A stretch of DNA of 64,000 nt from Polynucleobacter antarcticus (GTDB lineage Bacteria; Pseudomonadota; Gammaproteobacteria; Burkholderiales; Burkholderiaceae): positions 1,116,001-1,180,000 of the forward strand of contig NZ_CP028941.1 in assembly GCF_013307245.1 (NCBI RefSeq), read 5' to 3'. Of the stretch, positions 40,278 to 63,205 are shown one piece after another. A program made the position numbers and the translations under genes. Below the pieces are notes generated by a model. That model was not told the origin of the DNA. It was given only the letters and a program-made list of their open reading frames with translations, and did no database searches. The first letter of the stretch is position 1, and each line of letters opens with the position of its first letter.

Positions 40278-40784
40278 TTATCTTCCCTCAAAATGCGTCA
40301 ATAATTTATCAAGCTCCACTAAAAAAACTCTAGCTTTCTCCACTACTTCTCGTGAAAAACATGACTCATAGTGTCGCCACTCAGTCATGTCTGCATTTGT
40401 ATGCGACTGAAGAGTCCTCTTGCAGTCCTTGGAGCTTGTTGACGCAGGCATTTTTAGCATGCTCAGCAGTAAACCTTCTAAGCACGGCTTTGAACCAAGC
40501 ATCAAAATGCCGTGGTCCTTGGCAGTTTTTTTAAGCTCAGCAGGCCATGCAAGGTCCGTATCCAATAGAACAATTTTCTTGTCATAGTTATTTAGCCTCG
40601 TAAATCGAATGACTTGAGTCACAATGCTAATTGGGCTACCTCCCTGAGCATTTCTGATAGTGACAGAGACCCCCTCATTATCAGAGCAGTAGATATTTCT
40701 GAGGTGTCGCAAAAAAGCCTCTTCACAATCTCCCTCCCCCATCACAAGCAGCGTTTTACGCTGATAACGAATTCTTTTGATCAT
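40278..40784 (-). CDS. RloB-like TOPRIM protein (AbiLii/PARIS effector-type)
   Basis: The 168-residue protein has the RloB-type TOPRIM pattern. The catalytic Glu is in MGEGDCEEAFLRHL (about residue 17), the DxD in KKIVLLDTDLAW (residues 75 and 77), and the conserved SKPCLEGLLLSML further on. RloB proteins pair with AAA ATPases in AbiL, and AriB is the TOPRIM effector of PARIS. It follows the ATPase by eight bases. Phage-triggered toxicity is inferred from family and pairing. Confidence 0.78.
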   Translation of the reverse strand: MIKRIRYQRKTLLVMGEGDCEEAFLRHLRNIYCSDNEGVSVTIRNAQGGSPISIVTQVIRFTRLNNYDKKIVLLDTDLAWPAELKKTAKDHGILMLGSKPCLEGLLLSMLKMPASTSSKDCKRTLQSHTNADMTEWRHYESCFSREVVEKARVFLVELDKLLTHFEGR

Positions 40785-40792
40785 TTAAAAAA

Positions 40793-41977
40793 TCAGACCC
40801 GTGGTATGGCGCCATAAGCACCAGCCATATACTTCGCATACAAATTATCGTCAGCTCTTACGCCTTTCACGCTATCTAAACGCCACGCATCGCTGACGCA
40901 CTCTGAGTTTTTTTCAACCAATACAACTTGTGACTTGTGTAGGAGACTCAACACCTCAACTGAGTGGCAGGTGAAGATAATCTGGGCATTTTTTGGATTA
41001 GTCTTTTTTGAGAAGAATAAATTCAGTATCGGATGAAGCATATGGGGATGTAGGTCTGCTTCGAGCTCGTCAATGATTGCAAGACCACCGTTATTTAATA
41101 CTGGCAATATTCTTGAGAGCAATAGGTAAGCCCCCTGAGTTCCGCTAGACTCATGTTTGAATATTAGCGCATGCTCAACGCCATTGATCTTGTGCATTCC
41201 GATAGGGACAAATATGTCCTCCTCTTTACCGGATTCTTGAGTGTGAATCTGCTTCTCAATCTTGATACTCGAGAGTCCTAAATCCCAGTCACATAAGAGC
41301 TGATTCATTTGAGTACGAATATCTTCATTTCCTGCATACATTGCAGAAGCACTAATAATTTGAATATCATCCAAATACTGGCGGCCTAATATATTGACAT
41401 TGCTAGATACAAATCCCGAAACTATCTGCAATGCTAGAGGAACCTCATATTGAGCAGCAGTTGCGATTAGCGAAGCATTCTCACGAACTTTCTCGGCCTC
41501 CTTTTGCAAAAGACCAAACTGCTTCTGCTTGATATTGTATTTTTTATCTTCCTCGTCCCAATCTCTAGTGAAGACGTAAGAAAACGCACGACTTTGCTTG
41601 CAATATAAAGACTCAGAATAAACACGATGTTCATCAGCATCCAGAGAGTATCTCCACTCCTTTTCGTCCATCTCAAATTCAACTTCAAAATGGCTTGGCT
41701 CACCTTTGGCTAAAAAGTGAGCTACCAGAGGAATTGGTGCATCCACCCTACTTTGAAACGAATGCTTAATGAACCAATCCAAAAATGCTATTGATTTGAT
41801 AAGGGCAGTCTTTCCGCTTGCATTTGGCCCGATAATTGCCATTGCTTTGGATAATCTGTTCTCGTGTATGGTGCTAAATGAGCGATCATCTATAGGAACA
41901 TGCTGACTCATCTTCATCGAAATATGAGCTTCTTCCAAAAAAGACTGAAAATTCTTGATTTTGATTGAATGAAGCAT
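40793..41977 (-). CDS. AAA ATPase, RloA/AbiLi-like
   Basis: The 394-residue protein has an OLD/SMC-like ATPase layout: N-terminal KIKNFQSFLEEAHISM, Walker A IGPNASGKTALIKSI (about residues 49-63), an ABC-signature-like SSGTQGAYLLL, and Walker B GGLAIIDELEADLHPHML near residue 300. Together with the following RloB-like gene it forms a two-gene defence candidate of the AbiL or PARIS kind. It is located between portal and the lipoprotein module of the element. Confidence 0.8.
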   Translation of the reverse strand: MLHSIKIKNFQSFLEEAHISMKMSQHVPIDDRSFSTIHENRLSKAMAIIGPNASGKTALIKSIAFLDWFIKHSFQSRVDAPIPLVAHFLAKGEPSHFEVEFEMDEKEWRYSLDADEHRVYSESLYCKQSRAFSYVFTRDWDEEDKKYNIKQKQFGLLQKEAEKVRENASLIATAAQYEVPLALQIVSGFVSSNVNILGRQYLDDIQIISASAMYAGNEDIRTQMNQLLCDWDLGLSSIKIEKQIHTQESGKEEDIFVPIGMHKINGVEHALIFKHESSGTQGAYLLLSRILPVLNNGGLAIIDELEADLHPHMLHPILNLFFSKKTNPKNAQIIFTCHSVEVLSLLHKSQVVLVEKNSECVSDAWRLDSVKGVRADDNLYAKYMAGAYGAIPRV

Positions 41978-44874: not shown

Positions 44875-45210
44875 CTAATCAAAAAAATGTTTACCTAATT
44901 CATTAATGAGTTTTTTCAACTTATCAGTTGGCTTGAGTAGCCTTTGGCGCTTGTCTTGAGTGTCTTGCTCCAATACAACCCAGCCATGCTTAATCAAATG
45001 ATTTAAGTGCTTGCGTGTGTTGAGCATACTTTGAGTTGATTGGGTGCAAACCTCTTTGATCGTCGTCGGCTTGTTCTTTAGGTTCGACTCTAGGATGCGT
45101 AAAAGTAAATCATAGGTCACTAGAGAGTGGCCGTTGTAAAGAGACTGATCTAGATACTTTTTGACACTTACTATTTTTCTTAAATTTTCTACGTATTCCA
45201 CTTTCTTCAT
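44875..45210 (-). CDS. Winged-helix regulator
   Basis: This 111-residue protein has a winged-HTH pattern: LLLRILESNLKNKPTTIKEVCTQSTQSMLNTRKHLNHLIKHGWVVLEQDTQDKRQRLLKPT. This fits a MarR-like DNA-binding fold. The AGAGGG ribosome-binding site is close to the ATG. It lies before the envelope genes and after terminase, so it might control them. Specific ligand or target unknown. Confidence 0.65.
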   Translation of the reverse strand: MKKVEYVENLRKIVSVKKYLDQSLYNGHSLVTYDLLLRILESNLKNKPTTIKEVCTQSTQSMLNTRKHLNHLIKHGWVVLEQDTQDKRQRLLKPTDKLKKLINELGKHFFD

Positions 45211-45439
45211 CCCTCTATGTATAAAGATTGTTTATAAAAAAATCTATAAAAGAAATAGAAGATAAGTTGAACAATTAAATATGCATAGTTACGTTGTCTA
45301 TTTCCCATTTGCTTTCTTTGGGTGAAATCAGATTAGTAACTTGGTGGCTCGTTGATTGAGCTAGTGGAAAAGTTCCAACGTTTAGAACCACTGTTCGTTT
45401 GTACAGTTATTTTATTTTTTAAATTTATGTTTCAGACTT

Positions 45440-47740
45440 TTATTCAACTCTTCTTGCCCGCATTACCCCATACCTAGTGGCATCCCAGGCATGATCCTCG
45501 GCATCGGTATCTACGTCTTCTGGGTTTAATGAATCTGGAGGTAATTGGGGAATGGTTCTTAGCCAATGTTTGCAGGTCGAGAAGATTTTGAGTCTTTCTT
45601 CAGCTAAGAGGCGAATGATTTCTTGTGCTCCATTGACTCTGCTTCTTGGTGCGTTGTAGGCTTCAGTCCATTTGACCCCCTTGTCTCTAAAGATTTGACC
45701 TATTGATCGCTCTGCTCCTATTTTGGAAAAGATCGATGGGTCGGCTAAGTTCATGCGGTACTCATAGCCAAGGCGTTGATCGTGGACTTCGATCTTCTTG
45801 ATCTTCTCCGCTACTACGGTGGCATCTTCTCTTGTCCCGGTGTTTTCTTTATCGCCATATCCGTAGAGTTCTCTCCAGAGGTAATAGACTCCATCGTTAG
45901 ATAAGGCAAACCAGTAAACGGCATAAGGCCTTGCATATCCCCAATCCATCGAGCGCCAGATCTTCCAGCTTGGCGGTATGGCAAAGGGTTCCACAACGTG
46001 TTTAGAGGGCTGCCACACGCCTTCCAAGAAACTTCCCACGTGGATATCCCAATCTCCTTCTAGCCAAGCTCTGCGCCTGTTTGGATCACTCAGTGACTCT
46101 AAGTTAATGAGGTAGTCTGGATCATTCTTGAGTAGATGAACGTTCTCATAAATCGTTGAATGAATACGTACTCTTGCTAACGTGCCCTCTTGCTTAATGA
46201 TCTTTCCAGCGGGCACTACGCCTATCTGAAATCTTTCCTTTACAGATGCATGACCTACTCCAAATGGATTGCAAGTAGCCCTGACCATTTTAGGGATTTT
46301 GGGTTGTGTGGAACGGCATGTTGAAAGCATCGTCTCGTAAAATGAGAGGTTACGCCAGTTAGTGAGCTCTTCAAATCCTAACCAGCAATTTTTATTAATT
46401 AAGCCTGTTTTAGTAATGTAGTGATTGCTTGTTTCAACCTCAATATCCATTGTTAAAGCGGAACCACATGATTCATATACAACCCACCCGTCAGTCAGTG
46501 CCCGTGTTGTTTTCTGAGTTTGCCCACTGTAGGGATGAGGGTAGGTTACTGCGCCATCACAGTGGTTATGTCTATGAACGTTGCCCGAAACATCCGCAAG
46601 CAGATTTACATGGACGGGTTCTCCAGCATCGCCGTGAGATGGAGCGTTATTTAGGTCGATTCTTAACAGCGCATGAAGTTGTTCATCACTTAAATGGTAA
46701 GAAGGATGACAATCGTATTGAAAATCTCGAATTGCTGGGCTCATCCCGGGAGCATATGCAGGCTCACTCAAAACGGCGCAATCAGGAAGTGATCGAGCAA
46801 GTTCGGCAGGCTGCAAAAAATCCCAAAGCCACTCTTCTTTCACTCGGCATAAGCCCTGTTCTTGCTCGCGCAATTTGTCGCGATAATGCAATTGAATGGA
46901 TTCCTGCAAGTGAAACGCACCTTGCGCCAGATGATGTAAGGCAGGCATTGATTGGTCGAAAAACAGCGGATGCTGCAAAGTTGCTGGGGGTATCTGTGGG
47001 AACTTTATATCGTAATTTTCCTGACCTTTTAAGTAAGCGTAAGCCACCTGGTTTTTTGGATGGTCACAAAAAGACGATTTGTATCCTTGCCATGACCCTG
47101 AGCACCAATCAGATTGCAAAGTATTTTGAGACAACTCGGACGACCATGAACAAGGCTTTTGAGCGCTGGTCAAAAGCCGGTGATCTACCGATTGAACTTG
47201 CGTCCCGATTAAACGCAGATGGTCGTCGTAAACAGAAACTTTAACGCACTCTTTAAGCTGTGGTTTGAATACGCGTGTTACGGGACGAACCCCATCTAAG
47301 GTGACGACTTTATCCCCAACACGGAGCCTATCAATTGGGACTAGTCCTTCAGGTGTCAATACTTGAGTATCTAATGCTACGCAATATTCGTGTCCGTGGT
47401 AATTCCAGTAGTCATCCTCGTTGGCTCCATACCGAAAGTACAACATTTCTCCGGTTGGCCACTTCCATACGTAATCAGATTCATTGAACTTAGCGCCAGG
47501 GAAGATTTGATAGAACCACCGTTTACTCTTAGCTACGACGTCAGCTAATTGTGGATAGGTCAGGCGAAAGAGTACGCCTCGCCAATGATCTCCAAAACCT
47601 CTTCCTACATGCTGGGCGTAACTCATGAGTAAGGTATCGGTCTTGCCCCCGCCTCTTGTACCTTCCAGCAATACCTCATAGACCGGGCATGTCAGAAACA
47701 AAGTCTGACTCCCCGGCAATGGTGTCCAGATGGCTTTCAT
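45440..47740 (-). CDS. Terminase large subunit interrupted by an intein
   Basis: The 766-residue precursor contains a packaging ATPase/nuclease split by an intein. The N-extein (1-119) has Walker A GTRGGGKT at residues 27-34. The C-extein (452-766) has the Walker B segment CWLGFEELTNW at the junction, the nuclease motif MDWGYARPYAVYW, LADPSIFSKIG, and DHAWDATRYGVMRARR near the end. Splicing would give 434 residues with GHEY joined to CWLGFEE, exactly through the ATPase active site. The intein is residues 120-451. A complete HNH gene lies on the other strand opposite the intein. Confidence 0.9.
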   Translation of the reverse strand: MKAIWTPLPGSQTLFLTCPVYEVLLEGTRGGGKTDTLLMSYAQHVGRGFGDHWRGVLFRLTYPQLADVVAKSKRWFYQIFPGAKFNESDYVWKWPTGEMLYFRYGANEDDYWNYHGHEYCVALDTQVLTPEGLVPIDRLRVGDKVVTLDGVRPVTRVFKPQLKECVKVSVYDDHLRLIGTQVQSVDHRLLTSAQKPCSWSSELSQNTLQSDWCSGSWQGYKSSFCDHPKNQVAYAYLKGQENYDIKFPQIPPATLQHPLFFDQSMPALHHLAQGAFHLQESIQLHYRDKLREQEQGLCRVKEEWLWDFLQPAELARSLPDCAVLSEPAYAPGMSPAIRDFQYDCHPSYHLSDEQLHALLRIDLNNAPSHGDAGEPVHVNLLADVSGNVHRHNHCDGAVTYPHPYSGQTQKTTRALTDGWVVYESCGSALTMDIEVETSNHYITKTGLINKNCWLGFEELTNWRNLSFYETMLSTCRSTQPKIPKMVRATCNPFGVGHASVKERFQIGVVPAGKIIKQEGTLARVRIHSTIYENVHLLKNDPDYLINLESLSDPNRRRAWLEGDWDIHVGSFLEGVWQPSKHVVEPFAIPPSWKIWRSMDWGYARPYAVYWFALSNDGVYYLWRELYGYGDKENTGTREDATVVAEKIKKIEVHDQRLGYEYRMNLADPSIFSKIGAERSIGQIFRDKGVKWTEAYNAPRSRVNGAQEIIRLLAEERLKIFSTCKHWLRTIPQLPPDSLNPEDVDTDAEDHAWDATRYGVMRARRVE
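46388..47383 (-). mobile_element. Intein in terminase, with antisense HNH gene inside
   Basis: The 332-residue intein starts at Cys120 (block A CVALDTQVLTPEGLV...VGDKVVTLDG) and has a block B-like QSVDHRLLT. Block F is TMDIEVETSNHYI, and it ends in TGLINKN followed by Cys at +1. The penultimate residue is Lys instead of the usual His. No LAGLIDADG or other nuclease appears in the sense frame; the sense middle (about 240 residues) is unrecognisable. It lies just before Walker B, a conserved site of the kind inteins favour. Confidence 0.88.
46468..47244 (+). CDS. HNH homing endonuclease, antisense within the intein
   Basis: From the ATG at 46468 the product is 258 residues; a TTG at 46429 would add 13. 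The HNH_3-type core is GRVLQHRREMERYLGRFLTAHEVVHHLNG with the His pair, DDNRIENLELL and REHMQAH. Two C-terminal HTH-like parts follow (ADAAKLLGVSVGTLYRNF and LSTNQIAKYFETTRTTM), typical of DNA-recognition modules in homing nucleases. The gene lies wholly within the intein on the opposite strand. With the ATG start it avoids intein blocks F/G but overlaps block B. No clear ribosome-binding site is seen. Confidence 0.88.
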   Translation: MIHIQPTRQSVPVLFSEFAHCRDEGRLLRHHSGYVYERCPKHPQADLHGRVLQHRREMERYLGRFLTAHEVVHHLNGKKDDNRIENLELLGSSREHMQAHSKRRNQEVIEQVRQAAKNPKATLLSLGISPVLARAICRDNAIEWIPASETHLAPDDVRQALIGRKTADAAKLLGVSVGTLYRNFPDLLSKRKPPGFLDGHKKTICILAMTLSTNQIAKYFETTRTTMNKAFERWSKAGDLPIELASRLNADGRRKQKL

Positions 47741-47756
47741 CTACTTTTAATGGGAA

Positions 47757-48176
47757 TCAGGGCTTTGTTTGGGCTGCTTGCTCCCATTCATCCACACTCA
47801 TAGCACTAGGCACTACCAATACTCCGCTTTGTAGAGGCGCACCATCTTTGCCAGTATGTTCAATGGCAGATAGACGGGGGTGCATATAAGGCGCTGCATG
47901 CTTGGCGATATTGGCAGCCATGTTCAAAAGCTTAATTCGGTTCTCTGCCATCACTGCTGCATCTTGATGGTCTTGATTAGTCGCCTCATCCAATATCTCC
48001 TGCATCGTCCTGATCATGACTTCTAAGGGGGTAATACCTTGATTGACTGCTATCTCGGCTATCTCTCGGGTTCGCTTAGTCAGACTTCCCTCTTTACGCC
48101 CTGCTCCTTGCCTTGCCCCTCCCTTGGTTTTTGTCGTTGTGGTTTTCTTTGATTTTGTTTGATTATTTTCAATCAT
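47757..48176 (-). CDS. Terminase small subunit-like protein
   Basis: The 139-residue product has GGARQGAGRKEGSLTKRTREIAE, GITPLEVMIRTMQEILDEA and AAPYMHPRLSAIEH. This pattern occurs in phage proteins directly upstream of large terminases and is usually annotated as small terminase. It ends 16 bases before the large terminase start, which suits. The Thr/Lys-rich N-terminus is low complexity. Confidence 0.7.
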   Translation of the reverse strand: MIENNQTKSKKTTTTKTKGGARQGAGRKEGSLTKRTREIAEIAVNQGITPLEVMIRTMQEILDEATNQDHQDAAVMAENRIKLLNMAANIAKHAAPYMHPRLSAIEHTGKDGAPLQSGVLVVPSAMSVDEWEQAAQTKP

Positions 48177-48187
48177 GGGGTATTGGC

Positions 48188-48469
48188 TTAAGTTGTAGTT
48201 GCTGTTGTTGCTGCTGTTGTTGCTGCTACTGATGGCTTTTGAATGATGGTCAAAAGATAAGGTTGTAGTGCTACTGAATCTCCCATCGGATCATCAAATT
48301 CAATAATGATTCTTTGAAAGAGATCAAAGCGGCTTTGGGCTCCTCGATGCTTTACAACTGTTCCGATTCGCCCACTAGGTGTTTTAACAATCGATCCGAT
48401 GGGAAAGTCTTCCATATCAGGTCGATTCACCACTCCAGCCATAGGTTGAATGAGGTGATTAGGCTGCAT
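48188..48469 (-). CDS. Small phage protein of unknown function
   Basis: The start is taken as ATG at 48469, because AAGGAGG stands seven bases before it; the frame is open further upstream. The product is 93 residues with SH3-like beta character (FPIGSIVKTPSGRIGTVVKH) and a Thr/Ala repeat tail (AATTAATTATTT). It overlaps the DUF1376 gene by eleven bases. The tail is encoded by GTTGTTGCT-type microsatellite DNA (48193-48230). Confidence 0.6.
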   Translation of the reverse strand: MQPNHLIQPMAGVVNRPDMEDFPIGSIVKTPSGRIGTVVKHRGAQSRFDLFQRIIIEFDDPMGDSVALQPYLLTIIQKPSVAATTAATTATTT

Positions 48470-49352
48470 CACTTGCCTCCTTGCGCTTTCGAAGCTCGGT
48501 AAAAATTCTGGCTTTAAAAGCTTCATAGCTTTCTGAGCCTTGGGCTTTCATATCCAGCTCGCGCCCTTTGGTGTCTATTCCTTCATTGGTTTTCCACCAG
48601 CCGTCCTCCTCTAGATTTCCAGCCTGGGCTTTCTTACGCGCCCCTTTGAGAATGGCCAGTACGTAGCCCGCATTGATGGGGGTGTTGTTTGAGGCCTTCA
48701 TTCGGGTTTCTTTGGCTATGGTGATGGCTTCCACAACTTCTGCTTCTGTAGCGCCCAGATTGACCATATCGTTAATCCGCTGATCATCGACAGTAATGGT
48801 TTTGCCTTCTTTGCTTATGAGGACTGCAAAGCTTTTATATTTTTCCTGTGGGGTCGGTAGTCCTTGGGTAATTTTTTCCTTTTCGCCTCCTTTGTTTTGT
48901 TTGCCTGGGGTATGGAGATTGGTGACTGGTGTTTGGTGACTGGTGACTGGTGAGCATTGCGTTGGCATTGCGGACGCAATGCGTTCGCATCTGTTTTCAG
49001 GGGTAATTTGTACTTGTGGCTCATCTAACTGCATTGCTTGCCAGCGGCCTTCTGCGCTTCGCCTAGCTTTAATCTGCTTATCTTTAAAGCGGGCTATTTC
49101 ATGATCACAGCGATCTTGTCTCCAGCCATCATCGGTAAGGATAAAAAATTCATTGAGAACGGAAATCACTGCATTTTTTTCTTCTTTTGACCTGGCATTG
49201 ATCAGGCGCTGTACTAGCTTGATATCTGCCGGTATCGGCTTTTCTGTAGCGTAGTACTTCCTAATCAAACGGCTATAAGTTGCATCTTCAACAAAGGTGA
49301 GATGGGATGTTGCTTGTGAGTAGTCCCCAATGTGATGCTCGTAGTAATTCAT
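48459..49352 (-). CDS. DUF1376 (YdaU-like) replication-associated protein
   Basis: The 297-residue protein starts with NYYEHHIGDYSQATSHLTFVEDATYSRLI, the DUF1376 winged-HTH signature found in phage replication modules. The C-terminal part (APINAGYVLAILKGARKKA-like; actual NNTPINAGYVLAILKGARK) resembles helicase-loader ends. The central linker is polar, encoded by tandem TTGGTGACTGG repeats near 48917-48952. It is the first gene of the leftward operon. Confidence 0.78.
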   Translation of the reverse strand: MNYYEHHIGDYSQATSHLTFVEDATYSRLIRKYYATEKPIPADIKLVQRLINARSKEEKNAVISVLNEFFILTDDGWRQDRCDHEIARFKDKQIKARRSAEGRWQAMQLDEPQVQITPENRCERIASAMPTQCSPVTSHQTPVTNLHTPGKQNKGGEKEKITQGLPTPQEKYKSFAVLISKEGKTITVDDQRINDMVNLGATEAEVVEAITIAKETRMKASNNTPINAGYVLAILKGARKKAQAGNLEEDGWWKTNEGIDTKGRELDMKAQGSESYEAFKARIFTELRKRKEASDAA

Positions 49353-53586: not shown

Positions 53587-55260
53587 CTATAAAAAACCTT
53601 TTTCGATAAAGAGTTTTTCAGTAACTTTAGACATTACTAGATTTATTGTCAGTCTGGCTCTAGTTAAGCCTACAAACAATTTATTTTTTGTGACTTGATC
53701 CCACTCCGTAAAATCAATCTCGGTTAAGACTATGGCGTCAGCACACTGCCCTTTGAATCTATACAAGGTATCAACTAACAGCTCTCCGCTTGACCAAGTT
53801 GAATTGCTATCCTTGTCATAACCAGTAGATTTTTTAATAGAGAATCCATTGATCTTCTCAACTTGATCCGAGAGAAATACACTATTCTTCGCTCCACGAA
53901 AACTAAGAACAGCAATAGATTCGGGGGCAAAACCTTGGCCAATCAGATCTTGAACTGCATCAGATGTTTCACTGACAACATCTCCATCCTGATAAACAAA
54001 GTGGCCAGGAGGGAGACCTGCATATCCATTACCAGTCTCAAGATAGTCATCTGTCAAATTTAGGCCATTGATCAAAGTCAAAATATGCTGAGGAGAGCGA
54101 TAGTTAGTTGGGGATGAAAGTTTGACCCATCCCTCAGGCTCAATCGAGGGTCTGCCATAGATTCTTTGTGAATAATCTTCAAGCCAAATCATTCTGCCCT
54201 CAGGCTTGACTAGCTCTAATAAGACGGAAGCCCATTCAGGGTAAAAGTCCTGCCCTTCATCAATCACCAATACATCTAGTTGCTCCTTTAGCTCATCGTA
54301 ATGAGTTAGAAAGTAATCCACTATTTGTTTAAAGGTGGCCTCATCACCAAAATCAACCACTTGCCCTTGGCTTTCGGCCACAAATCTCGCAAGTTCGTGA
54401 AACGTCCAACAATTTTTCGGGTTAGGGGCGCTCATCTTTACAGAATCAACCAATGATCGATTAAAGCAGATATACATGGCAGTTTTATTCTGGACTTCTG
54501 CCTTGCGCAATTCTTTTAAAGCTAGCTGCGTTTTTCCCGAGCCTGCCGTACCCTGCACCCAAAGTCTAAATGGCGAGAAATCTAATCGCTCAGCCCATTC
54601 CGCAAGTCCGCTGGACAGCCTTGTGGTTCTCTGTCTAGCAGATTGACCAATTAAGCCAATTTGCGGGCACACATCCGCCTTGTCTAGGAAAAATGTCTGA
54701 ATATCAAGCGTTTTAGCCGTGTGATCTCCAGTAGGCATGGGATTTTTATCAAACATCTCATTGATGATTGATACCAAGGATTCACGGTTAGTGGAATCTA
54801 CAATTCTTCCAAGCGCAATATTAGCGGGTAAATTCTTGCCCACCTTAGCATTCGGAACATAAAGCAAATGATCAATTTCTAAGCGCTGTTCTGGATAACG
54901 ATTCTGGTACTCAGTGCGTAAAGAACCAATATTTCTGCTAACTTGTGAATTAATCGTTCTAGAGGACTTACTTAGCCCGTTTGCATCTTTATAAATCGGG
55001 ACAAGTTCACCCTTTAAATTCACTTCTATTTGGGTTTCTTTTTGCTCAATTGCCAAGACGCGGCCATAAGGGTTAAGTATTAAGAAATCGATCTCACCAT
55101 AGATCGCTGCGTCTTCTTCAACTCTAGTCCAATGTACCCCATGAAAAACCATGTATTGGTCGTTTAGACCTTCTTTCAGCATTTCCAGGGTTTTAAATTC
55201 TCCTTTATGCAAGACCTCGCCTTCGGCTAATTGGTAGTCTTCTGGAAAAAGTTGAGCCAT
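53587..55260 (-). CDS. NERD-domain nuclease fused to UvrD-like helicase
   Basis: This 557-residue protein has an N-terminal NERD domain (EIDFLILNPYGRVLAIEQKETQIEV, nuclease-like D and ExK). It then has superfamily 1 helicase motifs: Walker A VQGTAGSGKTQLALKEL, motif II LVIDEGQDFYPEW, LYRFKGQCADAIVLTEIDF, and KLFVGLTRARLTINLV. NERD-helicases are frequent in defence islands. Nicking or DNA unwinding of invading DNA is inferred. The ATG at 55260 has an AGG-containing leader. Confidence 0.85.
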   Translation of the reverse strand: MAQLFPEDYQLAEGEVLHKGEFKTLEMLKEGLNDQYMVFHGVHWTRVEEDAAIYGEIDFLILNPYGRVLAIEQKETQIEVNLKGELVPIYKDANGLSKSSRTINSQVSRNIGSLRTEYQNRYPEQRLEIDHLLYVPNAKVGKNLPANIALGRIVDSTNRESLVSIINEMFDKNPMPTGDHTAKTLDIQTFFLDKADVCPQIGLIGQSARQRTTRLSSGLAEWAERLDFSPFRLWVQGTAGSGKTQLALKELRKAEVQNKTAMYICFNRSLVDSVKMSAPNPKNCWTFHELARFVAESQGQVVDFGDEATFKQIVDYFLTHYDELKEQLDVLVIDEGQDFYPEWASVLLELVKPEGRMIWLEDYSQRIYGRPSIEPEGWVKLSSPTNYRSPQHILTLINGLNLTDDYLETGNGYAGLPPGHFVYQDGDVVSETSDAVQDLIGQGFAPESIAVLSFRGAKNSVFLSDQVEKINGFSIKKSTGYDKDSNSTWSSGELLVDTLYRFKGQCADAIVLTEIDFTEWDQVTKNKLFVGLTRARLTINLVMSKVTEKLFIEKGFL

Positions 55261-55331: not shown

Positions 55332-55709
55332 ATGCCTAATTGCCCCTTTTGTACTCTTCCTGCCGATCGAATTATTGACTCGAATGAGTATGGGCTTGTG
55401 ATTCGTGATGGCTTCCCAGTATCACCAGGGCATACCTTAATAATCCCCAAGCGACATATTGGATCTTGGTTTGAGATTACAGAGGAAGAGCAACTAGGTT
55501 TACTTAGTCTTCAAGCTAGAGCGCAAAAGATTCTTGAAAAAGAATTTAAGCCTGATGGTTACAACATCGGCATCAATGATGGGCCTGCTGCTGGACAAAC
55601 AGTGCCTCACCTACATATTCATCTCATTCCACGCTTCAAAGGCGATTTAGAAGATCCCAGGGGTGGTGTGAGATGGGTGATACCAAGTAAAGCGAAGTAT
55701 TGGTCCTGA
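55332..55709 (+). CDS. HIT-family nucleotide hydrolase
   Basis: This 125-residue protein has the HIT triad HLHIHLIPR, an N-terminal CPFC, and GINDGPAAGQTVPHLHIHLIPR. It looks like a diadenosine or AMP-lysine hydrolase type. Its stop overlaps the next gene by one base (TGATG). Its role beside a restriction gene is unclear; nucleotide signalling is one possibility only. Confidence 0.85.
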   Translation: MPNCPFCTLPADRIIDSNEYGLVIRDGFPVSPGHTLIIPKRHIGSWFEITEEEQLGLLSLQARAQKILEKEFKPDGYNIGINDGPAAGQTVPHLHIHLIPRFKGDLEDPRGGVRWVIPSKAKYWS

Positions 55710-57121
55710 TGATGATTGAAGCTGATCTTCTTCTCTTGTTTAGCAAAATCAATTGTGCTCGCGTAGGCAATGGCTATGCACCACATAAGCCTATTTTGCT
55801 TCTCTTGGCTTTAGAGAAAATTCTGAATAATCATGCAAATTATTTTTTCTTTGCAGATTTCGACCATGACCTTAAACGATTACTTGAAAAATACGGGTCT
55901 AACAATGCCTCCAATACTCGTAATGAGCCCTTCTGGCGCCTGAAGAATGACGGCATCTGGGATATTCAAGCTCCGACCTATTTACTCTCCCAAATCAGTA
56001 CACCAACACCTGCACAACTCATTGAAGAGAAAGTAGTAAGCATATTTAAAAGTGAGATCTTTGATGCGCTTGCTCAAAACCCAGATCTGATTAAAAAGTT
56101 AGCAGATCAGCTATTAAATCAATTCGTTGATCAAACACTTCAGATTACCCTACTTGCAGATGCAGCCCCCAGTATCAAGCTACTTGATCGTCAATATTGG
56201 TGGGTAAGCCAGAACCAAACTTATAAGCAAGAGGTGCCAGGTAACTTTATGTGGTCACCTAAGACCAATAGAGATGGTGGAAGCAACCCGTCATATAACT
56301 TTATGACCCAAATGCGACCTGGTGACGTGGTGTTCTCGTTTGCAGATACCTTTATCAAGGCTATTGGAGTGGTAACCCATGAAGCAGTATCGAGCGTTAA
56401 ACCCGATTTTGGCTCTGCAGGGGCAAATTGGCTTAACGATGGTTGGCTAGTAGACGTTGCATTTGAAGAGCTAAACACAGCCGCTTTTAAACCCAGTGAA
56501 TACATGGATCTATTAGCCCCTACATTACCGGGTCAATATTCCCCTATAAGAGCAAATGGTATGGGTAATCAAATTTATTTAGCCCAAGTGCCAGAGGCTA
56601 TGGCAGCAGCGTTACTCTCTCTCGCAGGTCCAATTGGACAGGCTGCTGTAATGGATTTATCAGAGTGCGTTGAATATGACACCCCAGTAAAAGCAGATGA
56701 TATTGAATCAGAAATTGAGATGCGTACCGATATTGGTGAAACTCAAAAAATACAGATTATTACCTCTCGCAGAGGACAAGGCGTGTTTAAAGCTAATGTG
56801 CGCTTAGTAGAGTCTTATTGCAGGGTTACGAAAGTCGCAAATCCAAAACATCTGATAGCAAGTCATATCAAGCCCTGGTCCAAATCAACTGATACTGAAA
56901 AACTGAGTGGATACAATGGGCTACTGCTCTCCCCTCACATTGATCATCTTTTCGATAAGGGATTTATCTCATTTGAAGGTAATGGGAGTTTAATTTTATC
57001 GAGTTATTTAGATAAGTCAGTACTAGATAAATGGCGGATTGATAAAAATATTTATGTGGGTAATTTTAGAAGTGAACAGCAAAAATTCCTGGAGTACCAC
57101 AGGGATGTGGTTCTGGCCTAA
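55709..57121 (+). CDS. Modification-dependent restriction endonuclease (SBD-like, EVE-like, HNH)
   Basis: The 470-residue protein has three parts. The N-terminal part resembles the sulfur-binding domain of ScoMcrA (NGYAPHKPILLLLALEKILN, NEPFWRLKNDGIW). The middle has an EVE/SRA-like layout (YWWVSQNQTYKQE, MRPGDVVFSFADTFIKAIGVV). The C-terminus is HNH_2-type (LIASHIKPWSKS, NGLLLSPHIDHLFDKGFISF). This order suits type IV restriction of phosphorothioated or methylated DNA. No dnd genes are in the window. Substrate is inferred. ATG at 55709 is next to the HIT stop; ATG at 55712 is also possible. Confidence 0.72.
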   Translation: MMIEADLLLLFSKINCARVGNGYAPHKPILLLLALEKILNNHANYFFFADFDHDLKRLLEKYGSNNASNTRNEPFWRLKNDGIWDIQAPTYLLSQISTPTPAQLIEEKVVSIFKSEIFDALAQNPDLIKKLADQLLNQFVDQTLQITLLADAAPSIKLLDRQYWWVSQNQTYKQEVPGNFMWSPKTNRDGGSNPSYNFMTQMRPGDVVFSFADTFIKAIGVVTHEAVSSVKPDFGSAGANWLNDGWLVDVAFEELNTAAFKPSEYMDLLAPTLPGQYSPIRANGMGNQIYLAQVPEAMAAALLSLAGPIGQAAVMDLSECVEYDTPVKADDIESEIEMRTDIGETQKIQIITSRRGQGVFKANVRLVESYCRVTKVANPKHLIASHIKPWSKSTDTEKLSGYNGLLLSPHIDHLFDKGFISFEGNGSLILSSYLDKSVLDKWRIDKNIYVGNFRSEQQKFLEYHRDVVLA

Positions 57122-57240: not shown

Positions 57241-60200
57241 TCAGGCTGCCATCTCAGCCCACTCTTCACCAAGAGCCTGAACTTGCTGTAAGACTAGCTC
57301 TACGGCTTCATCTTGTTCATCGGGTGGATACTTGTATTTCCGCAATATGCGTCTAACCATCAAACGTAGACTAGCTCTAACGCTTTCACGCTCAGCCCAA
57401 TCAACCTTTATATTCTTTCGAAGATTCTCAGTTAGTTCGTGAGCAATCTTTTTTAAGATTTCATCATCGAGCATACGCACAGCAGACTCATTGTTTGCAA
57501 GAGCGTCATAAAACTTCACTTCATCTTCACTCAGACCAAGATGTTGACCACGAGTAGTAGCTTCACGGAACTTCTTAGCCATTTCTATTAGCTCTTCCAT
57601 TACCTGTGCTGTTTCAATTGCACGGTTTTGATAACGTAAAATCACGTTATTTAAAAGGTCACTGAATTTCTTTTCTTGAACCACATTACTCTTAAAGCGA
57701 CTCTTGATTTCTCCCTGCAAGAGCCTTTCTAGCAACTCAACTGCTAGATTACGCTCTGGTAAGTTTTTAACTTGGGCCAAAAACTCATCACTTAGTAATC
57801 CAATATTAGGCTTTTCTAGCCCGACTGCATCAAAGATATCCACAACACTATCAGACACTACGGCTGAGTTAATGATTTGGCGAATCGCTAAATCACGCTC
57901 TTCATCTGTTTTACGTTTGGCAGTGATATCTCGCTTTGTTAGCAAGACCTTGACGCCTTGCATAAAAGCAACTTCTTCACGTACTTCTTTTGCTTCATCT
58001 AAGGTGCAGCAAAGTGTGAATGCCTTGCTCATTGCAATAGCAGTATCGGCAAATCGCTTTTTACCGTCCTTTATACCCAATATGTGATTAGCTGCTCCAG
58101 CCAAGCCTTTATGGCCAGCCGTTAAGAAATTGCTGTAATCAAAGCCGTGCAACATTCCACGCAAGATATCTAACTTTTCAGCTAAGACGCTATATGCCTC
58201 ACGAGCATCTACTTGAATCTGTCCACGTCCTTTACTGCCCGTGTACTGCTTCATTGCCTCTTTTAACTCATTGCCAATACCAATGTAATCAACAACCAAT
58301 CCACCTTGCTTATCCTTAAATACCCGATTCACACGGGCAATGGCTTGCATTAGGTTGTGACCCTTCATTGGCTTATCAACATAAAGTGTATGAACACAAG
58401 GAGCATCAAAGCCTGTTAGCCACATATCTCGCACAATCACAATTTTTAGATCATCATTTGGATCTTTGAATCGCTTTTCTAGTCGCTTTTTAGTCTTACT
58501 ATCGTAGATATGAGGGCGTAGTAAGGCTTTATCGCTGGCAGAACCAGTCATTACCACCTTAATCTCACCTTTTTCAGGATCTTCGTTATGCCAATCTGGA
58601 CGGATCTTAATGATTTCGTTATAAAGGTGAACGCAGATATCACGGCTCATCCCTACAACCATTGCCTTTCCAGCCATAGCCTTATTACGCTCTTCAAAAT
58701 GCTGAACAATATCTGCAGCTACTTGAGCAATACGAGGCTCTGCTCCTACTACCTTTTCTAAGGCTGTCCACCGACTCTTAAGTTTTGCCTGACTTCCTTC
58801 TTCTTCATCTTCAGCTAATTCATCAACTTCAGCATCAAGTATCGTTAAATCTTCTTGTTTAAGTTTTAACTTAGCAAGTCTAGATTCATAATAAATGGCT
58901 ACGGTTGCGCCATCTTCTTTAGCTTGCTGCATATCGTAGACGTGAATGTAATCTCCAAAAACAGCTCGAGTATCTCTATCCTCGCCACTAACTGGTGTTC
59001 CCGTAAACGCCACAAAGGTTGCGTTAGGCAAGGCATCTCTTAGGTGTTGCGCATAACCCGACTGATAACGCTCTTCTCCAGGTTTACCTTTTAGTTTTGC
59101 CTCAAAGCCATATTGGGTTCTATGTGCTTCATCTGCAATGACTACGATATTGCTACGATCAGAAAGGACCGGGAAAGCAGTTTCATCATCATCGAGCATA
59201 AACTTTTGGATCGTAGCGAACACAATGCCACCCGATGGGCGGTTACCCAGCTTATCTCTTAAATCTTGCCTACTAGTTGCTTGAACTGGCTGCTCACGTA
59301 AAAGGTCTTGCGCTAGGCTAAAAACCCCAAACAATTGGCCGTCTAAATCGTTACGGTCAGTAATCACCACAATGGTTGGGTTTTCCATAGCAGCCTCTTG
59401 CATAACCCTAGCTGCAAAGCAAGTCATCGTAATACTCTTACCGCTACCCTGCGTATGCCAAACAACTCCACCTTTATGATTACCGTCAGGTCTAGAGGAC
59501 TTAACAACCTGATTAATGGCAGCTCTTACTGCGTGAAATTGATGGTAACCAGCAATCTTTTTAATTAATTGGCCATCATCTTCGAATAGTACAAAGTAGC
59601 GCAGATAATCTAAAAAATACTCGGGTGCCAGTAAGCCACGAACTAAAGTTTGTAACTCATTAAATTGACCTAGAGGGTCGAGGATTGCACCATCAATAGT
59701 GCGCCAAGCCATAAAACGCTCGGGATTAGAGGATAAAGAACCTAAGAGCGCTTCTGTTCCATCGGATATAACCAATATCTCGTTATATTGAAATACGTCG
59801 GAGATCTGCTCTTTATAAGTTTGTATCTGATCGTATGCCTTCCAAATATCCGCATTTTCATCAGCTGGGTTTTTTAGTTCAATCAGTACAAGCGGTAGCC
59901 CATTTACGAACAAAATAATATCGGGACGCCTCGTGTGTTTCGGTCCCTTGATCGTGAATTGATTAATTGCCAACCACTCATTATTTACAACATCAGCCCA
60001 ATCAATTAATCGAACAAAGTCGCCCCGTGTTTCACCATCTTTTTGATACTGAACTGGAACGCCAGTTACTAGTAGTCTATGGAATTCACGGTTTGCCGAT
60101 AACAAAGCAGGAATACCTAAATCAACCACCTGCTTAAAGGCATCTTCTCGAGCATTTGGTGGAATATTTGAATTTAACTTATTGATTGCTTCACGCAAAC

Positions 60201-60339
60201 GAAACGGGAGCGTTGTTTGCCGATAATCATCTCGTTCGGGTGATAGGCCATCAAAAGCAATATCTGGGCCATAAAGATGCGTATACCCGACATCTACTAA
60301 CCATTCAAGCGTCTCTTGTTCGAGTTGATCTTCTGTCAT
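57241..60339 (-). CDS. hsdR: Type I restriction enzyme R subunit
   Basis: The 1032-residue protein has an N-terminal nuclease ([24 protein letters not shown], the D and ExK triad). The SF2 motor follows: Walker [26 protein letters not shown], and motif [14 protein letters not shown] helical C-terminal region completes the subunit. It is downstream of hsdS with two bases between. It needs HsdS and HsdM for assembly. Confidence 0.96.
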
Positions 60340-60341
60340 TA

Positions 60342-61668
60342 TTAGGGAGGTACATTTTCAGTTTCTGTCTCAGCATCAGCAATACGAAGCTGTCCAGAAA
60401 TCAATTGTGGCAGCAATGTGTCGCGAAGGTCAACAAGTGTGTTTACTCGCATTGCATTTTGAAAAATCTGATGCTGAATGCTTCCAACAACCCCTTCAAA
60501 TGCATCAAGAATTTTTTGCTCGGGTTTAGTAATTCGTAATCGCTTTAAATCAGCTACTGTGACGTGGCCCAAGCCTGTTGTTTGCTTGTTCCTTGCTAAC
60601 TCAGCGAAAACTGGACGTAAATATCTAAGTGCCTGAAGAACAAAGGCTCTCTCATTTTTTTGGATGTGGTAGAACTCTAAAGATATGTTGGTTTAACCAA
60701 CCGGGATCAAAGGACCACACAAAAGTATCAATAGATGTGTCGGGATTTCCTGACCAAGAAAATAAAATATCACCTGTCTCAATTCGATATTTTTTTGGCA
60801 TCTCGATATTTGAATATGCAGTATTTTCTGTAACGCCAGCCTTAAGTTCAGCAATTTTGATAATCGGTAAGCCTCGTCTATACATATTGGGCTCAAATGC
60901 TTTGTATGCAGCACCATTGATAAAAGTTGCAAGGTCATAAATTACAAATAATCTCCAATCTTTTGGTACCGTCTCTAACTCTGTCTCTTCAAAGCTATCA
61001 GGAAATAATTCAGCAGTTGCTTCGTCCATTCCTTCGGGCATAAGTCCCCTCGCTTTAGCGTGGACTGGATCAAAGTCTATAAACCAAGATTTGAATAAGG
61101 CTTGGGCTATGGATTCGAGAGTATCGTTGGTTTCACGCAGGAGGTTAATACGGCTATCAAAATTCGATAGGAAATCGCCTATAAACTTTTGCTCAGCCAA
61201 AGACGGAATAGTAATTTTAGTAGCGAGTAAGTGAGGAACTTTAATGCTTGGCTGAACAGAGCTAATGTCTAAAGTCTTAAGATATGACTGCATCTTAGGA
61301 TGGACTAGAGAATAGTAAAGAAAATCAGGCAAAACTATCTCTAAATTTGGCCTAAGCGCAATAAGATTTTGTGCAATACATCCATTTCCAGCTTCAAAAA
61401 GAGCGACTTCAGCTATAGAGCCGACCGTAGAAAAAATAATATCTCCGGGCAATGGGTGTCCAGCACGAAACCAATTTTTATAGGTTCCTTCAGTTACAAA
61501 CTTTTTGATGGCGGAAAAGTTAGGACTTTTAGCAGCCCCAACAATCGCATTCACTTCAATCAATGGATATGGCGAAATTGCATCTGAAATGGGTGGTGTT
61601 TTACCACGGTTATCTACTACCTTGATCAGGCACTCTTTGAGAGTCAACTCAATCCGCTTAGAGATCAT
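60342..61668 (-). pseudogene. hsdS: Type I specificity subunit, frameshifted at a seven-A tract
   Basis: The 5' part (61668 to 60652) encodes 338 residues of an HsdS with first target domain, spacer (LRETNDTLESIAQALFKSWF) and most of the second. It stops at TGA immediately after seven A (60661-60655). In the other frame the continuation is perfect HsdS (NERAFVLQALRYLRPVFAEL...GHVTVADLKRLRI...LLPQLISGQL). Removing one A gives 441 residues. The start is ATG at 61668; a TTG at 61674 also exists. It overlaps hsdM by eleven bases. Confidence 0.88.
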
Positions 61669-63205
61669 ATCCAAGGCTCTTAAGATTTTGGCGAATTAAT
61701 GCATCTAACTCAGCACCTTTTGCCATCTGCTCACCCAACTTCTCAGAAAGTTTTTGCATCTTTTCAGCAAAAGCCTCGTCATCATCTTCTACATCTTCTG
61801 CGCCTACATATCGACCAGGGGTTAATACGTGACCGAGATCGGCGATTTCTTTCAGTGAAACACTCCGACAAAATCCCGCAATATCTTCATATACGCCACC
61901 TTCACCACGCCAAGCCGCAACAGTCTGCTCAATTTTCGATATCACCTCATCAGTAAATTCAGCCTGTACCCGACTAATCATTGACCCAACTTTGCGTGCA
62001 TCAATAAATAGCACTTCACCCCTACGCTTGGTTTTTTGTTTAACCAAGAACCACAAACAGGCTGGAATTTGAGTGTTGAAGAACAACTGGTTTGGCAATG
62101 CAACCATCACTTCCACTACGTCAGCTTCAACCATTGCAGCTCGAATAGAGCCTTCGTTATTAGTGTTACTACTCATACTTCCATTAGCTAGAACGATGCC
62201 AGCACGTCCAGTCGGCTTGAGGTGATACAGCATATGCTGCAACCAAGCATAGTTAGCATTACCCTGTGGAGGCTCGCCATAGACCCAGCGAGGATCACCC
62301 ATTAAGCTACCGTGCCACCAATCACTTATATTAAAAGGTGGATTGGCAAGGATGAAATCTGCTCGTAAATCTGGGTGTTGATTCTTGGTAAAGGTGTCGT
62401 CAGGCTCCCGACCTAAATTAAAGTCGATTCCACGAATAGCTAGATTCATTGCAGCTAAACGCCAAGTAGTTGGATTAGCCTCTTGTCCATAGATAGCTAC
62501 GTCACCGATCTTGCCACCACGAGCCTCAATGAACTTTTCCGACTGAACAAACATTCCACCAGAACCACAGCAAGGGTCATAGACCTTGCCTTCGTGCGGC
62601 GAGAGAACTGCAACTAGAGTCTTAACAATAGAAGCTGGCGTATAGAACTGTCCGCCACGCTTACCTTCAGCGTTAGCAAACATTCCTAAGAAGTACTCAT
62701 AAACCTGCCCCAATATGTCACGAGCAGTACTTGGGTTATCGCCAAAGCCAATAGTAGAGATTAAATCTACCAACTCACCCATTTTTCCATCAGGCAATTG
62801 AGCGCGGGCATACCGTTTATCTAAAATTCCCTTTAGCTTAGGGTTTTCAGTTTCAATAACCGTTAAGGCTTCATCAATACGCTTGCCAATATCCGTAGAC
62901 TTAGCTGCCGCTCTGAGGGTTTCCCAACGAGCGGATTCAGGAACCCAAAATACGTTTGCTTCGGTGAAATAGTCTCGCTGTTCTAATTCAGCTTTAATTT
63001 GTGCATCATTTGCCTCGCCAAAGAAATACTCATCCTTGGGATCGCGTAATCGAAGATTAAGTTCTTGCTGTTTTGCTGCAAAAGTATCCGAGATATACTT
63101 AACAAATATCAAGCCAAGAACAAGATGCTTATATTCAGCTGCATCCATATTGGCACGTAGCTTGTCTGCCGTTGCCCAAAGGGTCTTTTTAATGTCGTCC
63201 AGCAT
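61658..63205 (-). CDS. hsdM: Type I DNA adenine methyltransferase
   Basis: The 515-residue protein has the N6-adenine methyltransferase motifs DPCCGSGGMFVQS (SAM binding) and NPPFNISDWW (catalytic NPPF). The HsdM N-terminal helical domain (DDIKKTLWATADKLRANMD) is present. The gene is intact. It is first of hsdM-hsdS-hsdR. Confidence 0.96.
   Translation of the reverse strand: MLDDIKKTLWATADKLRANMDAAEYKHLVLGLIFVKYISDTFAAKQQELNLRLRDPKDEYFFGEANDAQIKAELEQRDYFTEANVFWVPESARWETLRAAAKSTDIGKRIDEALTVIETENPKLKGILDKRYARAQLPDGKMGELVDLISTIGFGDNPSTARDILGQVYEYFLGMFANAEGKRGGQFYTPASIVKTLVAVLSPHEGKVYDPCCGSGGMFVQSEKFIEARGGKIGDVAIYGQEANPTTWRLAAMNLAIRGIDFNLGREPDDTFTKNQHPDLRADFILANPPFNISDWWHGSLMGDPRWVYGEPPQGNANYAWLQHMLYHLKPTGRAGIVLANGSMSSNTNNEGSIRAAMVEADVVEVMVALPNQLFFNTQIPACLWFLVKQKTKRRGEVLFIDARKVGSMISRVQAEFTDEVISKIEQTVAAWRGEGGVYEDIAGFCRSVSLKEIADLGHVLTPGRYVGAEDVEDDDEAFAEKMQKLSEKLGEQMAKGAELDALIRQNLKSLGYDL

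Follow-up and report, generated by a model that had tools for sequence, protein, structure and literature searches.

Where does an intein keep its homing endonuclease when the intein polypeptide holds none? The question is raised by a terminase large subunit gene (terL) in a 2.15-Mb Polynucleobacter genome, at what looks like a prophage locus. The stretch of DNA analysed, called the window here, covers 64,000 nucleotides (positions 1,116,001-1,180,000 of the single contig). Mobile inteins are single polypeptides with two activities, as in PI-SceI, a bifunctional mobile intein with an in-frame homing endonuclease domain. Judged by its sequence, the insert in this terL works like a mobile intein, with predicted splicing and homing, but has no endonuclease in the intein polypeptide. 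Very probably it is a mobile intein in which a complete, separately translated antisense gene, and not an in-frame domain, supplies the homing endonuclease.

The terL gene lies on the minus strand (45440..47740) as a stop-free frame of 766 codons, and its product matches the PHROG terminase large subunit family at 4e-31. The frame runs unbroken through an intein of 332 aa (46388..47383, minus strand), which extends from C1 to N332 (ORF residues 120-451) and is followed by a +1 Cys; the junctions, marked by slashes, read GHEY/CVALDTQVL...LINKN/CWLGFEEL. Intein-less homologues show clean exteins, and an intein-less terL allele reads GHEYPWLGFEEL. The terL product matches 622 phage records, and all 40 among the matches listed are split in two pieces with 55-56% of the product covered. 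A close TerL relative carries the name Polynucleobacter sphagniphilus. On the plus strand, wholly within the intein, lies an HNH endonuclease gene (46468..47244, stop included) encoding 258 aa from an ATG, with an HNH domain followed by helix-turn-helix (HTH) modules; a TTG at 46429 is a possible alternative start and gives 271 aa. The layout of the original prediction, an intein on one strand and a homing-type HNH nuclease on the other, therefore holds. Its claim about phase is likewise read directly from both frames: HNH codon position 1 lies opposite intein position 1, and positions 1, 2, 3 face 1, 3, 2.

The intein consists of two conserved ends and a long middle. The N-terminal half of the HINT splicing fold (47168..47383, minus strand; intein residues ~1-72) holds block A and the block B His68, and the C-terminal half (46388..46549, minus strand; residues ~279-332) holds the HPY motif, block F and the NKN end. 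Between them, the frame opposite the HNH gene (46550..47167, minus strand; residues ~73-278) is open, matches nothing in Pfam at E values of 1 or lower and lacks a confident AlphaFold fold. In an alignment of 31 rows, including one member (L177) without its start, nine residues never vary (H68, H283, P284, Y285, D313, N320, H321, N330 and N332), and C1 and K331 are almost invariant. The class 1 residues C1, H68, H321, N332 and the +1 Cys are all present; the blocks, including the B and F histidines, are taken to have the roles they play in inteins generally. A textbook intein has His ahead of the last Asn and Thr in block B; here the penultimate residue is Lys, not His, and Ser or Pro replaces the Thr. 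An AlphaFold model built with the 31 aligned rows gives block pLDDT values of 94-98 for residues 1-70 and 89-97 from residue 281 to the end, mostly in strands, and 33-68 for residues 71-280. Foldseek returns 102 matches to this model at E up to 10, eight of them below E 0.001, and each of the 50 among the matches listed is an intein or an intein-like HINT domain. The top matches are to gp41-1 (E 3e-5) and to DnaB inteins; 2imz, the Mtu RecA intein, aligns with a TMt of 0.74 over 344 columns. The intein family profile matches PI-SceI at 1.6e-5, and the terL product matches Pfam Hint_2 at 5e-6 with 27.3 bits, below the cut-off of 28.4. Residues and model together identify the insert as a class 1-type intein with a predicted HINT fold built from both ends and with predicted splicing. 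The in-frame endonuclease domain of the canonical bifunctional intein is absent, and the endonuclease is antisense.

An insert of this kind might also stay in the host protein unspliced, as a tolerated loop that hides an HNH gene, as proposed for the ShiLan domain. The available excerpts of one report offer a precedent for such an open-frame insertion (PMC11855218), and the penultimate Lys would suit this reading. It is very improbable nevertheless: the HINT fold is confidently modelled, splice residues are conserved at both ends, and the intein ends outside the overlap evolve at a dN/dS of 0.08-0.23. Moreover, the insert breaks the Walker B motif of TerL, a protein that tailed phages require.

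The plus-strand protein shows the motif and fold of an HNH homing endonuclease and matches Pfam HNH_3 at 9e-9. The HTH-like modules of the original prediction are recovered as weak matches at ~172-199 and 220-251 (TTG numbering), below the Pfam cut-offs. Residues H54, H73, H74, N82 and H96 are invariant across 43 HNH sequences. Foldseek with the HNH model yields no match below E 0.001, and the HNH profile finds no match among PDB sequences; sequence identity is 18% to I-HmuI (PDB 1u3e), whose gene lies on the sense strand of its group I intron. When the first ATG is assumed to be the start in each member of the family described below, AGGA, GGAG or GAGG lies at -15 to -4 in 14 of 28, against a background of 7.6% at other codons of the same HNH ORFs. 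The window's own leader, the purine-rich AAAGCGGAA (46438..46467, plus strand) ahead of the ATG, is weakly Shine-Dalgarno-like and contains none of these three 4-mers, and a promoter scan found no plus-strand site.

The nested layout is not peculiar to this locus but belongs to a large family found in many environmental phages. The codon pattern of the intein C-terminus alone, searched over IMG/VR without reference to the HNH gene, identifies 41 viral loci, of which 34 have an antisense HNH profile match, all in one phase; four of these matches are short or cut pieces (L145, L156, L167, L173). A same-strand HNH match occurs in none of the 41, and no in-frame ancestor was found from which the HNH gene could have moved to the other strand, as had been proposed. 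Six loci without an HNH match carry inteins of 147-178 aa (L144, L149/L178, L160/L166, L164), and L158 was rejected as a chance pattern match with a 19-aa ORF. Broken-frame loci may have escaped the scan, but in 40 of the 41 loci the ORF that contains the motif is 493 aa or longer. Pattern loci and HNH-found loci together make 48, with L158 left out, and clustering at 95% reduces them to 35: 28 whose antisense ORF is 200 aa or longer, two truncated at contig ends, four short, and one remnant (L145) with an antisense ORF of 95 aa. The HNH lies inside the intein in 28/28. Members occupy two adjoining insertion sites, QGHEY/C-WLGFEE and QGxPHDLI/C-FDE, both of which we take to be Walker B; the intein studied here is inserted at the Walker B strand (GHEY/CWLGFEEL). 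Other queries reached less far. The intein alone matched nothing in viral contigs, the HNH at 1e-15 matched 2 of 150 relatives (its own genome and G071), and A2 at 1e-20 matched only its own genome among 398 genomes of the phylum. The genome collection holds three loci, namely two nested relatives and one distant HNH.

The two frames of the overlap are under different kinds of constraint. The HNH frame has a dN/dS of 0.10-0.14, which indicates strong purifying selection, and the intein frame of the same stretch a dN/dS of 1.1-1.4. Sequence change in the overlap thus tracks the HNH frame: in eight equal-length pairs of close relatives from the second set described below, most changes fall at the HNH third position (22, 19 and 68 in L201/L202, for example). 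At the same time, the intein frame remains open. When HNH codons are shuffled synonymously at the window locus, 8.45 intein-frame stops are expected and none is observed, and 0 of 1000 shuffles are stop-free; this rules out a chance open frame, in agreement with the original argument. Across the 28 non-redundant Walker B members, intein-frame stops number 0 against 246 expected, and HNH-frame stops 0 against 159 expected. The supposition that both frames are constrained accordingly stands for the HNH protein and for the openness of the intein frame but not for the intein sequence, which by these rates is unconserved as protein within the overlap, the splicing blocks at the ends excepted. An assembly artefact is ruled out as well, because the same nested layout occurs in the separate contigs L001, L002, L021 and L022 and in the divergent phages L106, L107 and L110.

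These counts also bear on two other readings. The HNH gene might be a decaying passenger, of real ancestry but functionless now in most carriers, and the loci that have lost it or keep only a fragment (L144, L145, L149, L160, L164) would agree with this. Such decay is scarcely probable given the low dN/dS of the HNH frame, the five invariant residues, the complete lack of HNH-frame stops and the frequency of Shine-Dalgarno 4-mers at its starts. Alternatively, the insert might be a group I or II intron that is removed as RNA and bears its endonuclease gene antisense, the intein frame being incidental. Antisense homing genes do occur in nuclear group I introns, as the original prediction noted and as the available text of one study describes (PMC9548176). 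Like the gene studied here, Dsq.L2066 and the related genes in that text are nested on the strand opposite their host element; there, however, the host is an rDNA ribozyme whose strand need not be open, and the enzyme is of the His-Cys type (PMC9548176). In the window, no Rfam intron family is found at E up to 10 in 45000-49000, which leaves the group I ribozyme core without a match; together with the HINT fold and a frame open in 28/28 members against 246 expected stops, this makes removal as RNA almost certainly wrong. A protein-splicing intein with a functional antisense gene is the reading retained.

A second set of loci, mostly in P-loop proteins, extends the layout beyond Walker B. It emerged from a control set of 18 supposedly free-standing HNH ORFs, 13 of which have 2-13 antisense stops each (99 in all), while the other five (L006, L007, L010, L011, L017) have none and lie antisense in inteins at Walker A. 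Since they are nested in P-loop inteins, these five were regrouped as cases. A wider HNH scan of viral contigs gave at least 600 stretches, of which at least 334 were confirmed and 80 kept; with phage Ymer, the set numbers 81. A locus was called nested when it is stop-free in the 1:1 phase opposite an ORF more than 40 aa longer than the HNH. Among the matches listed, 53/81 have zero antisense stops in that phase, a proportion that is no population frequency because the ranking of the scan favours sequences resembling its nested query. The other 28, non-nested, have 2-18 antisense stops and HNH ORFs of 125-313 aa. By phase, loci with zero stops among the 81 listed number 53 in phase 1, 0 in phase 2 and 5 in phase 3; two of the last belong to the 53 and lie in GC-rich DNA, and the other three face ORFs of 186-455 aa with no intein ends by eye. 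Among the 53 nested loci listed, 36 end in N[CST]GK[ST], six have other intein-like ends and 11 are pattern-negative. After clustering at 95%, at least 45 nested cases remain, with 0 stops observed against 238 expected. The 28 non-nested HNHs listed contain 273 stops against 297 expected, an agreement with chance that reflects bimodality and not an independent sample, as this set was chosen by having antisense stops.

To identify host genes, Pfam was run on 20 of the 53 ORFs opposite an HNH, and PHROGs on 10 of these. Terminase families are matched by 13 of the 20, some weakly; L230 is SbcC-like, L239 Sak4-like and L228 a DEAD-type helicase, and four (L197, L216, L217, L225) show no clear host family. 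Pfam Intein_splicing exceeds its curated cut-off in five of the 20 (L194, L197, L225, L227, L260), a further argument against an unspliced loop. The SbcC-like, Sak4-like and helicase hosts indicate that the nested intein-HNH element is not bound to packaging, and this weighs against a further explanation, that the HNH protein is a terminase packaging accessory of the kind often encoded beside terL, stored antisense by chance. The host gene here is indeed a terminase, and the accessible part of the literature describes HNH proteins with a helper role for terminases (PMC11855218). This explanation is nonetheless highly unlikely, as the HNH lies inside the intein in every Walker B member and, among the matches listed, recognised intein ends lie opposite the HNH in 42/53 second-set loci. 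In addition, the short inteins without an HNH (L149, L160, L164) suggest that packaging proceeds normally in its absence, and relatives with ~93% identical exteins lack the gene. An HNH that serves the mobility of its intein remains the preferred reading.

The distribution of the insert is compatible with such mobility. A search of 186 same-genus genomes gives a terL match in 28, and three of these carry the intein (G000, G071, G235); the rest comprise 23 intein-less ORFs of 434-449 aa and two fragments. Among viral terL loci, 2 of the 80 kept (137 found) match through the intein. The close relatives with ~93% identical exteins are without the intein-HNH insert, so that the HNH gene nested in its intein is sporadic among relatives. 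Third positions of three carriers (L002, L021, L022) differ by 5-7% in the HNH gene, by 12-24% in the first 100 codons past the intein, and by 28-38% in the N-terminal and distal C-terminal parts of the extein. In the pair L002/L021, a tract of high identity begins near the HNH stop and does not fall below 95% until ~250 nt beyond the intein; in the other two pairs the tract extends ~150 nt beyond the intein at no less than 94%. Between the window and L001, the same site classes differ by 38% (HNH) and 35-42% (extein), and these similar rates indicate that the overlap by itself hardly slows HNH third positions. The identity tracts fit what gene conversion around a cut would be expected to leave.

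The extein trees show three changes of carrier label but weigh against this reading: a single clade of carriers is not rejected (p 0.64), and the constrained tree outscored the free search. The motif could be located in 94 of 104 exteins; in these, the +1 position is Cys in five carriers and Pro (88) or Gly (1) in intein-less alleles, so the Cys codon seems to move together with the insert. A quick tree was also made from 106 HNH proteins. In it, the Walker B group (26) falls on one side of a branch with support 93, and 70 nested and 36 free-standing HNHs are separated by four changes, compared with 30 for shuffled labels; many deep branches of this tree are weak. The simplest reading of these sequences is one or few origins followed by spread of an intein-HNH cassette. 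The constant phase would then be inherited and would not speak for repeated choice.

The proposed cycle has several steps. terL would be translated across the whole insert, and both insert ends would form the HINT domain, splice the insert out and join the terminase. Transcription and translation of the opposite strand would yield an HNH endonuclease that carries HTH DNA-binding modules in its C-terminal part, and this enzyme would cut insert-free terL alleles at the conserved Walker B codons. Repair would then copy the intein together with the HNH gene into the cut allele, a step with which the tract data agree. The pattern of sequence evolution shows that selection keeps the HNH protein and a stop-free intein frame, so that splicing would survive, and leaves the intein middle otherwise free. 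In its broader form, the proposal is that these elements are a widespread, long-lived class of mobile inteins, with the endonuclease uncoupled as a nested antisense gene in one phase, with the two-strand cassette carried into Walker A/B sites of terminases and other phage P-loop proteins, and with homing timed independently of the host gene; this is probable, if with less confidence than the reading as a mobile intein with an antisense homing gene. Independent timing would follow from expression of the endonuclease from the other strand.

Known systems share parts of this arrangement. Bifunctional mobile inteins likewise place a HINT splicing domain within a conserved ATPase motif, be it in TerL or in a different P-loop protein, have an associated homing endonuclease and are sporadic in their presence; in them, however, the endonuclease is a domain of the same frame, whereas here it is a separate opposite-strand gene and the intein keeps a spacer without a confident fold. 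For mycobacteriophage TerL inteins, the available excerpts report an identifiable endonuclease domain in TerL1-b and -c (PMC5050341). The ShiLan domain and the Pacc40 insertion also hide an out-of-frame HNH gene, and the inserted DNA likewise leaves the frame of the phage host gene open, but the ShiLan HNH lies in the third frame of a methylase, with no detectable splicing domain (available text of PMC11855218). The present HNH is not in another frame of the same strand but antisense, the host frame is an intein, and a HINT domain is present. The words antisense, reverse and opposite are missing from the accessible portion of that paper (Arsenault, Gosselin and Gogarten 2025; PMC11855218). Viral antisense overlapping genes also yield two proteins from overlapping frames, to judge from excerpts of e.g. 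PMC8781085 and PMC8227390; unlike these, the present family pairs an intein with an endonuclease, in one antisense phase, and recurs in 28 plus at least 45 nested HNHs. Among the matches listed from open-access full-text literature, no intein with an antisense endonuclease gene was found, in line with the suspicion of the original prediction that the layout is undescribed for inteins.

Here splicing and mobility fall to separate genes, one on each strand of the same DNA, and several host genes carry the layout across its 28 plus at least 45 non-redundant nested cases. The overlap is a dense natural instance of antisense dual coding, and it allows the constraint to be measured frame by frame. 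The reason for decoupling the endonuclease from the intein, whether timing, dosage or freedom from the splicing fold, becomes testable. Gene finders that bar antisense overlap can miss one half of such a pair.

Named phages carry the layout as well. Eight records show it, those of Pectobacterium phages Ymer, Abuela, Sabo, Koroua, Amona, Taid and Pappous and of Dickeya phage Setonix, and when the coordinates of both searches are compared, the HNH in all eight lies on the opposite strand within the terminase ORF. Six tblastn searches with nested HNHs over 50,697 phage records reached at least 80% query coverage with one query only, in 8 of 212 records. Ymer, the sole record of the eight that was read, has a 754-aa ORF with the junctions GFG/CVHPHTKV...HIHHN/TGKSQ; its matches to Terminase_6N and 6C exceed the cut-offs, and its match to Intein_splicing (7e-5) stays under the cut-off. 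Relatives of the Ymer terminase, such as that of Escherichia phage KW1E_UTAR, give a two-piece match with 59% covered. Ymer CDS0009 is annotated as a hypothetical protein, which the nested layout explains; the available text of the paper on the genus of Ymer does not contain the words intein, homing, HNH or antisense (PMC11445585). The HNHs of SOVA965, Javan74, Manatee Spring phage and phage Jack were set aside, as they are not antisense to an annotated gene. The HNH match of Cr-LKS3 shares its strand with the gene that contains it, which is annotated as a DNA methylase.

The residue that follows the intein in the terminase large subunit gene (terL), encoded at window positions 46385-46387, is cysteine in all five intein carriers, and proline (88) or glycine (1) in intein-less relatives. 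The spliced terminase would therefore differ from the uninvaded one at the +1 position. In L106 (IMGVR_UViG_3300004463_000594), a relative with the same nested arrangement, a TerL reading frame of 1362 aa occupies L106:2010-6098. In addition to the nested intein, this protein carries Hint-type matches at residues 777-850 and 1246-1283, and near its N-terminus a GGGK motif is followed by an insert-like start; TerL of L106 thus seems to contain further inteins.

In G071, a genome of the same genus that carries the intein, a second place holds a terL fragment (L141:4661-5626), whose start falls within the intein's C-terminal part and which continues into the C-extein. The remaining terL is absent around this fragment, which is a remnant.

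Between two other nested relatives, L002 and L021, the first ~140 nt of the intein have diverged to the same degree as the exteins. The tract of high identity starts close to the stop codon of the HNH gene, as if the HNH part had moved together with the C-terminal side. In Cylindrospermopsis phage Cr-LKS3, a gene annotated as DNA methylase contains a same-strand HNH match (OM373202.1, 39679-39912), possibly a hidden HNH resembling the published ShiLan insertion.

Other genes in the window include a pair in the phage region downstream of terL (40278-41977, minus strand) with PADLOC matches to AbiLi (8e-76) and AbiLii (1e-13). Type I restriction-modification genes (REase, specificity and methyltransferase) occupy 57241-63205 on the minus strand, and beside them lie a NERD/helicase-like protein (53587-55260) and a 473-aa protein (55700-57121, plus strand) whose C-terminus matches HNH restriction models.
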